This document shows positions 55,373 to 62,327 of a stretch of DNA of 64,000 nt, piece after piece. Below the pieces are notes generated by a model. The model was not told the origin of the DNA, made no database searches, and saw nothing but the letters and a program-made list of their open reading frames with translations. Source of the DNA: an uncultured Pseudohongiella sp. (lineage in GTDB: Bacteria > Pseudomonadota > Gammaproteobacteria > Pseudomonadales > Pseudohongiellaceae); assembly GCA_951812965.1 (NCBI GenBank), contig OX638341.1, positions 2,958,438 to 3,022,437 on the forward strand, written 5' to 3'. Position numbers and translations under genes: made by a program. Each line of letters starts with the position of its first letter. Within the stretch, counting starts at the first letter, position 1.

Positions 55373-56650
55373 ATGGCTGACAAACTTCGATTTGCCGCGG
55401 CCGTTTTGCTCTGCGGCCTGACTTTTCCGGCCCTGGCAGCCGAACTGCCAATGGACTCAGCGGAAAACGTCGGCGTTTCCCCGGAACGCTTGCAACGCGT
55501 TTCCGACACGATGCAGCGATATATCGACAATGACCTGCTGGCGGGCACGATCACGCTGCTGGCGCGCGACGGCAAGGTCATCCACCTGGAGTCCCAGGGC
55601 TGGCGGCACAGGGAAGCCGGCGCCGAAATGACCGAAGACAGCATCTTCGTCATCATGTCGATGACCAAACCCATCGTCTCCACCGCCTTGATGATGCTGT
55701 ACGAGGAAGGCCGCTTCCTGTTGACCGACCCGATCACCGATTGGGTTCCCGAACTGGCGGACAAGCAGGTCATAGTGCGCGACGAATACGGCACGCGGCG
55801 CGTGCCGCCCGCGCGGCCGGTGACGATTCGCGACGTGCTGGCGCACACCGCCGGAGTCGACCCGAACCGGTCCGATCTGAGCGACTCGGAGCAACAATTG
55901 CTGGGGCGCGCCGAAACGCTGGAACAGACCATCCTGCAACGTGCGCCGCTGCCGCTGGATTTTCATCCCGGCGACGAATGGCGCTATGGCAGTTCCACGG
56001 ACTATGTGGCAATTCTGGTCGAACGGGTTTCAGGGCAGCCGCTGCGGGAATTTCTGCGTGAGCGAATTTTCGAGCCGCTGCAGATGAGCGACACGCATTA
56101 CATCGTTCCCGCCGACAAGGTGAATCGCGTCGCCGCGGTATACAGCCCCAGCGGGCCCGAGCGAACCATCGAGTTAATGCGTGCGCCGGAATACCGTGAG
56201 ACTACGTATTTCGGCGGCGTGGCGGGGTTGTCTTCGACGATCTCCGACTATTGGCGCTTCGGCCAGATGATCCTCAACGGCGGCGAGCTCGACGGCGTAC
56301 GCTTGCTGAGCCCTAAAACCGTCAGCCTGATGATCAGCAACCATACCGGCGACAAGGACATTTACGTGCGCGGCCCGGGTTACCATTTCGGCCTCGGCTT
56401 CGGCGTGCTGGACGACGCCGGCGTAGCCCGCGACCCGATGACGCCCGGCACTTTCACCTGGGGCGGCGCCTGGGGAACGCTGTTCTGGGCCGACCCGGTG
56501 GAAAACATGGTCGGCATCCTGATGACCCAGATCAGTTCCTACGGCCACATCAACGTGCGCAACGACTTCGGCGTAACCGCCATGCAGTCGATCGTCGACA
56601 GCTACGCGGCGCGGCCGTTCACCGTGGCGCCGTATCCGAAGCTGGACTAG
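55373..56650 (+). CDS. beta-lactamase-family serine hydrolase
   Basis: A 425-aa secreted serine hydrolase (signal ends LAAELP) of the class C beta-lactamase/esterase fold. SxxK is SMTK (about 101-104) and a YxS-type motif is YGSSTDY. Members include esterases and D-amino-acid peptidases; activity on antibiotics cannot be assumed. Its last about 150 bp are mirrored by a decayed copy at 59736-59920, on the far side of the TonB receptor gene. Confidence 0.85.
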   Translation: MADKLRFAAAVLLCGLTFPALAAELPMDSAENVGVSPERLQRVSDTMQRYIDNDLLAGTITLLARDGKVIHLESQGWRHREAGAEMTEDSIFVIMSMTKPIVSTALMMLYEEGRFLLTDPITDWVPELADKQVIVRDEYGTRRVPPARPVTIRDVLAHTAGVDPNRSDLSDSEQQLLGRAETLEQTILQRAPLPLDFHPGDEWRYGSSTDYVAILVERVSGQPLREFLRERIFEPLQMSDTHYIVPADKVNRVAAVYSPSGPERTIELMRAPEYRETTYFGGVAGLSSTISDYWRFGQMILNGGELDGVRLLSPKTVSLMISNHTGDKDIYVRGPGYHFGLGFGVLDDAGVARDPMTPGTFTWGGAWGTLFWADPVENMVGILMTQISSYGHINVRNDFGVTAMQSIVDSYAARPFTVAPYPKLD

Positions 56651-59607: not shown

Positions 59608-59642
59608 ATTGCTTCCGAATCGTCGACTGATTCGGAAGCAAT
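59608..59642 (-). promoter_or_regulatory. 14-bp perfect inverted repeat upstream of the TonB receptor
   Basis: ATTGCTTCCGAATC (59608-59621) pairs with 59629-59642 around a 7-nt spacer GTCGACT. It ends 25 bp before the receptor start codon, in the leader or promoter. It could be an operator for a dimeric repressor or an RNA hairpin; no T-run follows it. Confidence 0.6.
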
Positions 59643-59735
59643 CGAATGACCCAGCATAGTTGAGCCATGATCCACTGTCAAAAAGACTATACGGGCTCAG
59701 CGAAAATGAGACAGTGTAAGCGATTCCAGGCCGTT

Positions 59736-59920
59736 CCCGGCGGGAACATGGTCGGCATTCCGAAGACTCGGATCCACTCCCGCAGCCACATTAGCGTGTT
59801 CAACGACTTCGGCGTCACCACAATGCAGTCGGTTGTCGACATCTATGCGGAGTGGCGCAACCCTACATTGTGGCACCGTATCCAAAACTCGATAAACTGC
59901 TTTTGGAACGGCGTACGCTT
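59736..59920 (+). pseudogene. decayed 3' end of a serine hydrolase gene
   Basis: The translation NMVGIPKTRIHSRSHISVFN and then DFGVTTMQSVVDIYAEW aligns with the end of 55373-56650 (NMVGILMTQISSYGHINVRN, DFGVTAMQSIVDSYAAR). After that a frameshift occurs: VAPYPKLD-like coding (GTGGCACCGTATCCAAAACT, near 59870-59889) continues in another frame. Nothing 5' of about 59736 resembles the gene, so only the tail survives. Confidence 0.78.
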
Positions 59921-60970
59921 CTAGCCAAGAAAAGTCTCCATGAATGACTGCAGTCCAAGTTCGATAAACCATGTCACAATGACAGCACTTACAAAAAGAA
60001 TGACAGTCAATGCAATACGTGTTCGGCGGCGGCTACGGTCAAACTGGCGTATTGCATCCCGTGACGTAAGCTCTGAAAATTTGGTTGGAGATCTGACTTG
60101 AAGTGCTCGAGCTACTACCAGATTAATCGTGTCACAAACTGATTCAGATTTTTCACCTTTAGCTAACGCATTGACTAATCCTGCACAAGCGGCATCGCCG
60201 GCTCCTATTGTTGTTAGGGGAACTACACCAGCAGGAGTTGAATTGCGATTTACGGCAGAATCAATTAGATACCAGCCATACTCACCGTCAGTAACCAGTA
60301 GCGTTCTTGTATTGAGTTTACGCTGTAATTCCTTCAGACTTTCGTCCGAAACTCCTTCCGCAATACTGAGCGCTTTCTGTAATGCAGCAGCCTCATCACG
60401 ATTCATACACAATGCGCGAGTTCCGATTGATTGCGTTGCCAGCAAGTTTAAGGCCTTCACAGCAGATGTTGCCGCTCCAACTATTGGAATATTTTGACTT
60501 TTGCTGATTTCAGAAATTTTTCTAATTACCTCTACAGATAAATTGCAATCAAAAATGATCCAGCTAAATTTCGCCGCTACTATTTCCAGCTTCGCGATAA
60601 TACTGTCGGTTGATTGACCAATGCCCATACACGAAATAGCCGAATACAAGTCTTTGTTCTTAACAGTCGCAACGAATGCACTTTCACTCAATCTCTCATC
60701 ATCAATTATGTACTTTCGAGACAGTCCACCTGCTCGCATAGCAGTCAAAACGGCACGTCCGGTAAATGACGACTTATTTAGTGCTGTTAACAAAGATGCC
60801 TTGTGTCCTAACTCTTGCATCCAGGCAGCAATATTGAGTGCAGTGCCGCCAACATCAAAATCGACCCGACTTCCTATTTTGTCCACAGATACTTCTTGGC
60901 CAACATCTTTAAATTCAGCGAAAATGTCGAGATGCGCTGAACCAATCACGAGTATATTGGCTGAAATCAC
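59921..60970 (-). CDS. PfkB-family carbohydrate/nucleoside kinase with C-terminal membrane helix
   Basis: A 349-aa kinase of the ribokinase fold. N-terminal LVIGSAHLDIFAEF and GGTALNIAAWMQELG bind substrate; the anion hole and base are in PLTTIGAGDAACAGLVNAL (about 252-270). The fold ends near residue 300; a basic stretch RSRRRTRIA and one hydrophobic helix (about 316-338) follow, which is unusual for this cytosolic family. Substrate unknown, pseudouridine- or ribose-like sugars being family possibilities. It overlaps the methyltransferase stop by 4 bp. The region is AT-rich, suggesting transfer. Confidence 0.82.
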   Translation of the reverse strand: MISANILVIGSAHLDIFAEFKDVGQEVSVDKIGSRVDFDVGGTALNIAAWMQELGHKASLLTALNKSSFTGRAVLTAMRAGGLSRKYIIDDERLSESAFVATVKNKDLYSAISCMGIGQSTDSIIAKLEIVAAKFSWIIFDCNLSVEVIRKISEISKSQNIPIVGAATSAVKALNLLATQSIGTRALCMNRDEAAALQKALSIAEGVSDESLKELQRKLNTRTLLVTDGEYGWYLIDSAVNRNSTPAGVVPLTTIGAGDAACAGLVNALAKGEKSESVCDTINLVVARALQVRSPTKFSELTSRDAIRQFDRSRRRTRIALTVILFVSAVIVTWFIELGLQSFMETFLG

Positions 60971-61674
60971 TTGGTAGCAATCATCTTAATGTTGCCAAAT
61001 TCAGATAACCAAAGTTGGAGGATATTCAGCTTGCAGTTGACTGCCAGTTGCCGAGCATCTTCCAGAGAGTAGAGGCACACTTTTCTATATATTCCGTGCT
61101 TTTCTTTCATGTTATCTGCAAGATGAAAATAACGTTTGGTTAATGTAGTACTTGGGTATCCTACAGCCAATTCACTTTCTGACCCAGACAAAGAAAGGAA
61201 TAAACTGCATTTTTTGCTTCTATTCACTATAGTTTGGATGAGATCTACCGCCTCAAAAAATCGAAGGAAATGCAAAAAACGTTGCGAATATACAATGTCT
61301 GGCATCGGACACTCTTCCCAATTAACATGACGAGCATCAGATTCTACAATCTGAATCGAGTAGCCATTGCCTGAAATCTTCGCCAATTTGTTCATTGGTT
61401 CAATGTCACACGCTATCACAGCACAGCCAATTCTCAAGAACTTGATTGCCATAGCGCCTTGGCCGCAACCGATGTCGTAAACCACGGGCCTACGTTCTCG
61501 TTCGTTATCAATATGACCTTTTGCTTCCTTTAGCGCTTGGAAATCAAGATCGTCTTCTCTTTGGCTACTAATATCCGCGCCAAAACCCGACTCCCCCACC
61601 AACACACGAAGATCCCCATGCGTGTTTAGGGATTTGCCAGAGTTTGTGTTTCGACGGCTTGGGCTCATATGCAA
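60967..61674 (-). CDS. class I SAM-dependent methyltransferase
   Basis: A 235-aa protein with the SAM-binding motif VVYDIGCGQGAMAIKFL (about 64-80), motif II acidic end VIACDIEPMNKLA, and motif for the third strand MPDIVYSQRFLHFLRFF. About 60 residues precede motif I, including a short basic N-terminus. The fold matches small-molecule methyltransferases such as the TehB-like group more than DNA methylases (no NPPY). It overlaps the kinase start by 4 bp and starts 4 bp after hepT, in the AT-rich island. Confidence 0.78.
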   Translation of the reverse strand: MHMSPSRRNTNSGKSLNTHGDLRVLVGESGFGADISSQREDDLDFQALKEAKGHIDNERERRPVVYDIGCGQGAMAIKFLRIGCAVIACDIEPMNKLAKISGNGYSIQIVESDARHVNWEECPMPDIVYSQRFLHFLRFFEAVDLIQTIVNRSKKCSLFLSLSGSESELAVGYPSTTLTKRYFHLADNMKEKHGIYRKVCLYSLEDARQLAVNCKLNILQLWLSEFGNIKMIATK

Positions 61675-61678
61675 AATT

Positions 61679-62017
61679 TCAATTGTTTGAATCGACAGCT
61701 TTCAAATTCTCAATCAATGAAGGCAAGTCTTCAATAACTGTCTTCCACACAATTTCATAGTCTACATCGAAATATCCATGAATCAGTCGGTGGCGCATAT
61801 CAATAACGTCTTTCCACGGGATATTTGGATGTGCTTTTCTGGTTTCATCACCTACCTGATTGGCCGCCTCGCCAATAATTTCAATTAGCTTAAGCACGGA
61901 CAATTGGCTTAGCCGATCTTCTTCAAATTCAATCCGAGATTTGTTACCAGCGATAGAAACCGCCTCTTGTGCCGAATCAAGCATGTCGAGAACAAGAGCT
62001 CCGTCGTCACGCTTCAT
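61679..62017 (-). CDS. hepT: HepT-type HEPN RNase toxin
   Basis: A 112-aa HEPN-domain protein with the catalytic motif RX4HXY at R75-H80-Y82 (RHRLIHGY). HepT toxins are RNases; the antitoxin MntA silences them by AMPylating the motif tyrosine. Helices 1 and 2 (VLDMLDSAQEAV, LSVLKLIEIIGEAANQV) fit the family. It overlaps mntA by 11 bp. Confidence 0.92.
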   Translation of the reverse strand: MKRDDGALVLDMLDSAQEAVSIAGNKSRIEFEEDRLSQLSVLKLIEIIGEAANQVGDETRKAHPNIPWKDVIDMRHRLIHGYFDVDYEIVWKTVIEDLPSLIENLKAVDSNN

Positions 62018-62327
62018 ATAGTACCCTCAGGGATTCGAGAATTGCTTTGCGCCTTATGTGGTTTCTGCTTTTTTCCACAGCGTTTCTAGTCACCAGGTCT
62101 ACTTTACGTCCTAACATTTCTGCCATTTCCTGTTCCATTCGTACAATTCCCAATAGTCCAGGCGTATGATCGGGTTCGAACTTTACCAGCACGTCTATGT
62201 CGCTTTCGGGGCCGAAATCACTGCGCAGGATCGAACCGTACAGACACAATTCACCTACATTCCACTTGCGGCAGAATTCCCGAATTGCTTCGGACCGAGA
62301 GGCAATGCGTTCGATTTCCCGCTCCAT
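62007..62327 (-). CDS. mntA: MntA-type nucleotidyltransferase antitoxin
   Basis: A 106-aa minimal nucleotidyltransferase with GSX10DXD complete (G31-S32, D43, D45 in GSILRSDFGPESDIDVLV). It should transfer AMP to HepT, switching off its RNase. It is the first gene of mntA-hepT-methyltransferase-kinase, in which consecutive genes overlap or are 4 bp apart. Confidence 0.92.
   Translation of the reverse strand: MEREIERIASRSEAIREFCRKWNVGELCLYGSILRSDFGPESDIDVLVKFEPDHTPGLLGIVRMEQEMAEMLGRKVDLVTRNAVEKSRNHIRRKAILESLRVLYEA

Follow-up and report, generated by a model that had tools for sequence, protein, structure and literature searches.

A PsuK-like kinase with alternative C-terminal ends, paired with a methyltransferase and lying beside HepT/MntA in a presumed insertion of a Pseudohongiella genome

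The window analysed here, the whole stretch of 64,000 nucleotides from an uncultured Pseudohongiella sp., contains an unexpected element: a PsuK-like kinase that is paired with a methyltransferase, whose family carries alternative membrane or diguanylate-cyclase ends and is often found on mobile DNA. A nucleoside-kinase fold of RNA-nucleoside recycling is tied to a diguanylate cyclase and a methyltransferase on mobile DNA. The explanation that we tentatively favour, with confidence somewhat short of even, is that a horizontally acquired block holds two unrelated functional units, a mobile PsuK-like kinase/methyltransferase pair and an ordinary HepT/MntA pair.

Four genes on the minus strand run in the order mntA-hepT-methyltransferase-kinase at 59921-62327. 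Their positions and junctions are as the earlier note had described them: mntA and hepT overlap by 11 bp, a gap of 4 bp separates hepT from the methyltransferase gene, and the methyltransferase and kinase genes overlap by 4 bp. The Pfam matches for all four genes exceed the gathering score. The features of the locus are as follows.

62007-62327, minus strand: mntA, MntA adenylyltransferase antitoxin (PF01909, 4e-17; GSX10DXD intact)
61679-62017, minus strand: hepT, HepT HEPN RNase toxin (PF01934, 3e-25; RX4HXY intact)
60967-61674, minus strand: class I SAM-dependent methyltransferase of a small distinct family (TTG start; Methyltransf_11, 3e-7)
59921-60970, minus strand: PfkB-superfamily kinase, PsuK-like, with a basic stretch and a C-terminal membrane helix (GTG start; PfkB, 5e-22)
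59936-60019, minus strand: kinase tail, approximate, basic RSRRRTR and a hydrophobic helix from about residue 319 (hydropathy; predicted helix 298-348)
59724-59893, plus strand: serine beta-lactamase-like gene, 3' fragment lying just within the block (about 75% DNA identity to the intact gene at 55373-56650)
59684-62324: block of about 2.64 kb, absent from sister genomes, presumed insertion (flanks contiguous in seven relatives)

The four genes have a G+C content of 42-49%, whereas the window averages 59.4%, and G+C drops along the block from about 60% to 41-46%. At third codon positions the kinase has 35% G+C, compared with 73% in the MBL-fold gene. The low G+C reported earlier was confirmed; the neighbouring gene on the TonB side is intermediate (53%). 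The extent needs correction, as the low-G+C stretch takes in 59684-59920 with the beta-lactamase gene fragment. Promoter and terminator sites were no more frequent in the block than in shuffles.

In seven close relatives (L056-L062), the gene of the TonB-dependent receptor adjoins that of the MBL-fold hydrolase, and 4-319 bp separate the homologous flanks; the MBL-fold gene is kept in 68 of the 81 genomes of the genus. Because the flanks are nearly contiguous in these sisters, about 2.64 kb is present here and absent there. The extra stretch (approximately 59684-62324) consists of the four genes and the beta-lactamase-like fragment, and its right-hand boundary coincides with the mntA start codon in the junction alignments. 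The absence of the block from seven sister genomes also marks the observation as beyond chance, and this absence together with the composition leads us to read the block, most simply, as an insertion, presumably gained here. Across the taxonomic family, 136 further genomes yielded no member of the methyltransferase family, and two weak partial matches among them look generic. These results support the transfer suggested by the earlier note. Neither a target-site duplication nor transposon ends were evident in the junction alignments and repeat search. The beta-lactamase-like fragment is possibly a remnant of a recombination event or of the donor neighbourhood. At least four sisters (L056, L059, L060 and L062) show no DNA match to the intact beta-lactamase-like gene at 55373-56650 in their equivalent region, so this stretch seems to vary repeatedly. 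Just upstream of the TonB-receptor gene, at 59608-59642, two 14-bp arms form a perfect inverted repeat around a 7-nt spacer; the repeat is operator- or hairpin-like and is not perfectly kept in L056.

The kinase and methyltransferase are linked well beyond this genome. Six pairs are known in total, at distinct loci that include the window; all six have the same gene order and an overlap between the methyltransferase stop and the kinase start; the functional link proposed earlier is supported. In a class-wide sample, the gammaproteobacterial MAG STY2_bin_6 encodes a methyltransferase 54% identical to ours and, directly after it, a kinase 56% identical with the same basic-plus-membrane tail; hepT and mntA are absent there, and ordinary chromosomal genes surround the pair. 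Scanning 84,980 species genomes with the kinase alignment, and searching the taxonomic family to which the Paraburkholderia genome belongs, gave four further distinct pairs, more distant than this one: L022/L026 (the proteins of the two MAG bins are identical), Alcanivorax sp. 1008 (L024), Paraburkholderia fungorum (L025) and L032, a second genome of the family of L025. A phage-type integrase, an F-type TraN and a type I RM-like protein are encoded next to the L026 pair, TrfA, ParA and ParB next to the Alcanivorax pair, and a T4SS coupling protein, a transglycosylase and ArdC next to the L032 pair. At least three of the five other pair loci are in plasmid or conjugative regions, and a lone kinase (L023) adjoins an rve-type transposase. 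The module is rare and tends towards mobile elements; a pair widespread in core metabolic loci, which would have spoken against the earlier proposal, was not found. On the Alcanivorax contig that carries TrfA, ParA and ParB, a PAPS-reductase-domain protein of 565 aa (L035 7001-8698) is encoded about 8 kb from the pair. A phage or plasmid origin was considered and rejected: searches of 72,556 plasmids with four queries from the family, and of phage records with one query, gave no match to the methyltransferase, and no relative was found in viral contigs.

HepT and MntA behave differently. Their motifs, R75-x4-H80-x-Y82 and GSx10DxD, can be read intact in the sequence, as had been noted, and correspond to those required for toxin adenylylation in the published type VII system (PMC7641770), while their scores of 28.6 and 38.4 bits stay below the NCBIfam equivalog cut-off of 60 bits. 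The coupling of the kinase and methyltransferase to HepT/MntA, which was the central proposal of the earlier note, was not borne out. By blastp at each pair, hepT and mntA are absent near all five other loci. When the six other host genomes were searched throughout with PF01934, four had no HepT-like gene, and the remaining two had one on contigs other than that of the pair. With no linkage in either search, HepT/MntA was rejected as part of the kinase-methyltransferase system; since the other pairs lack it nearby, what is conserved is the pair itself, and HepT/MntA is a local companion. Operon-like closeness of this kind needs comparative loci before function is read from it. In the reading favoured here HepT/MntA is an independent companion of the pair and possibly stabilises the island. 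A second HepT-like gene lies in the same genome at a distance from the block (G000:C1:2263844-2264185, locus L067). PADLOC-DB 2.0.0 assembled no listed defence system; MntA matched PDC-S09, the methyltransferase gave partial matches only, and the kinase and HepT gave none. For the defence role that had been raised as a possibility, no evidence was found.

The kinase scores 79 bits against PF00294 (gathering score 25.8), with GAGD as its GxGD motif and NRDE as its NxxE motif. In the profile search, E. coli PsuK was matched at about 2e-27, whereas the best of the chains called simply ribokinase reached 3e-9 to 6e-9. Only an uncharacterised kinase from Agrobacterium, 2nwh, ranked above PsuK (6e-32). 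The AlphaFold model (pLDDT 77) has a long C-terminal helix at 298-348 and a low-confidence stretch at 16-37. PsuK accounts for the top 12 Foldseek matches of this model, and the VIA Z was 31.0 for PsuK (2.5 A, 278 residues) vs 28.2 for E. coli ribokinase. PsuK is thus the best match among characterised enzymes by profile, Foldseek and VIA Z. The kinase reaches 53 bits where the NCBIfam PRK09850 equivalog cut-off is 540.

Aligned with E. coli PsuK (EcPsuK), all seven kinase family members keep N143, S167, K170, D16, G41, N45, D256 and E190, and six of the seven keep N187. In EcPsuK, N143, S167 and K170 contact the base, D16, G41 and N45 the ribose, and the catalytic D256 the 5'-OH (PMC9247573). 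The N143/S167/K170 pattern is missing from YdjH and ketohexokinase in profile alignments. A nucleoside is the likely substrate class, one of the three (nucleoside, nucleotide or sugar) that the earlier note had named. The N1 of pseudouridine is read by Thr26 in AtPUKI and Ser30 in EcPsuK (PMC9247573); this position is K31 in the window kinase and Lys, Arg or Ala across its relatives, so that pseudouridine itself is possibly not the substrate. The proposed metal ligand D164 of EcPsuK is not conserved in the family, which makes a non-catalytic binding role possible. Given both changes, the nearest prediction is a pyrimidine-nucleoside kinase that need not act on pseudouridine. PsuG (PF04227) was found in none of the eight host genomes tested, with a positive E. 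coli control; canonical pseudouridine catabolism was rejected on this ground, and the module does not serve normal pseudouridine breakdown.

The methyltransferase family is marked by QRxDDLD, YSQRFLHYL (SQRxxHY), SxSGLxSELG and FGNxK. SAM motif I (DxGxG) is present in the window protein as DIGCGQG and is weak in L025 and L032 (DAASASG and DVASAAG). The predicted structure (pLDDT 82) is a generic class I Rossmann fold with Z of about 17-19 to many enzymes, and among its top VIA matches are enzymes of small-molecule chemistry and antibiotic tailoring as well as tRNA methyltransferases such as METTL6. As the match is so generic, the fold does not identify the substrate; the matches listed lie within about 2.5 Z across many chemistries and were uninformative in this respect. 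Solo family members occur in L017, L018, L019 and L034. In L017 (7670-8575 and 9055-9855), the solo methyltransferase is near a divergent leucine-carboxyl-methyltransferase-like gene, and no kinase is present.

The kinase C-terminus varies within the family. In the window protein the best 19-residue Kyte-Doolittle window reaches 2.37 at residue 319, after RSRRRTR, in agreement with the membrane helix predicted earlier; the tail is conserved in the nearest relatives. Three kinases (window, L021 and L022) have such a hydrophobic helix (2.2-2.65 over 19 residues). An Arg/Lys run precedes it in the window and L021 proteins, which favours a cytoplasmic kinase domain. The C-terminus of three others is instead a GGDEF domain (E 8e-35 to 3e-38) whose GGEEF or GGDEF motif is intact; these fusions always lie behind the methyltransferase gene.

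L024 7995-9374: PsuK-like kinase-GGDEF fusion
L025 7989-9362: PsuK-like kinase-GGDEF fusion
L032 5186-6556: PsuK-like kinase-GGDEF fusion

The lone kinase L023 has neither end. In L025, an EAL-domain gene lies downstream of the fusion on the opposite strand. The exchange of an anchor for a cyclase on one kinase is the strongest hint of a signalling role.

In the two-unit explanation, the first unit would be a rare, mobile, translationally coupled methyltransferase and PsuK-like pyrimidine-nucleoside kinase. The kinase dimer would bind, and probably phosphorylate, a pyrimidine C- or N-nucleoside, for example a modified one from RNA turnover, and the methyltransferase may methylate that nucleoside or its 5'-phosphate. 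The kinase C-terminus would act as an output or address that can be exchanged, taking the form of a membrane helix here and of a diguanylate cyclase in relatives, and ligand at the dimer interface may set its state: c-di-GMP synthesis in the fusions and a membrane-tethered activity here. The second unit would be an ordinary HepT/MntA toxin-antitoxin pair, possibly stabilising the block. The more specific idea of a mobile-element signalling device, in which the PsuK-like dimer reads a modified pyrimidine nucleoside, the methyltransferase tunes the ligand, and c-di-GMP or a membrane-tethered effector is the read-out, is possible although on the unlikely side. If it is true, a nucleoside-gated module would serve conjugative elements and genomic islands, and, if the ligand is found, free modified nucleosides would be a signal read by mobile elements.

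Other explanations must be weighed against the same evidence. The pair might serve plain metabolism or detoxification without signalling, a modified nucleoside or nucleoside-like antibiotic being methylated and phosphorylated for salvage or resistance and the tail placing the enzyme near uptake or efflux. The PsuK-like pocket, the antibiotic-tailoring and small-molecule enzymes among the top VIA matches of the methyltransferase model, and the carriage of the pair by mobile DNA are all consistent with this; however, the three GGDEF fusions with intact motifs are hard to fit to salvage alone and the hosts lack PsuG, and we regard it as rather unlikely. Alternatively, the kinase fold might be a catalytically dead receptor that only binds a ligand made or destroyed by the methyltransferase. 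The GGDEF fusions and the loss of D164 agree with this, as does the PsuK-type dimer, in which each protomer extends a residue to the nucleoside bound by its partner (PMC9247573). Such a receptor is nevertheless improbable, given that every member keeps the catalytic D256, the GxGD motif and E190, and that all but one keep N187.

Least probable of all, and in our judgement very doubtful, is the idea raised in the earlier note that the four genes form a guard or defence system, with the HepT RNase as effector and with a trigger that the kinase and methyltransferase would sense or produce. It would account for the operon-like layout on one strand and for the presence of all four genes within one block, but the five other pairs and most of their hosts do without HepT/MntA or HepT-like genes, HepT/MntA is common as a stand-alone pair, PADLOC matched neither the kinase nor HepT, and of the other loci only L026 had a neighbour of defence type (type I RM-like).

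The literature searches showed no title or abstract describing the pair, and full-text searches gave no paper on a GGDEF domain coupled to a PsuK-like kinase. The 'PfkB' of prophage KKP (PMC11341870) is described as a Ser/Thr kinase; it has only the name in common and was rejected as a relative. Among known systems, HepT/MntA of type VII (PMC7641770) shares with the present locus both signature motifs and adjacent, overlapping genes, but here two extra genes follow downstream. The Agrobacterium kinase 2nwh has the AH.D, NL, S..K and MN..EA signatures of the kinase and likewise misses D164, whereas its total length is 317 and the C-terminal extension is not aligned. E. coli PsuK (7vkp, 7vtg and 7vva) and Arabidopsis PUKI resemble the kinase in fold (Z 29-31) and in the residues for base, ribose and catalysis; the kinase differs from them in N14, replaced by His, Y97, replaced by Phe, the N1 reader and D164, as well as in the lack of psuG, the methyltransferase partner and the added C-terminal helix or GGDEF. 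Finally, the three fusions share the GGDEF/GGEEF active-site motif with diguanylate cyclases, but join it to a PsuK-like kinase domain.
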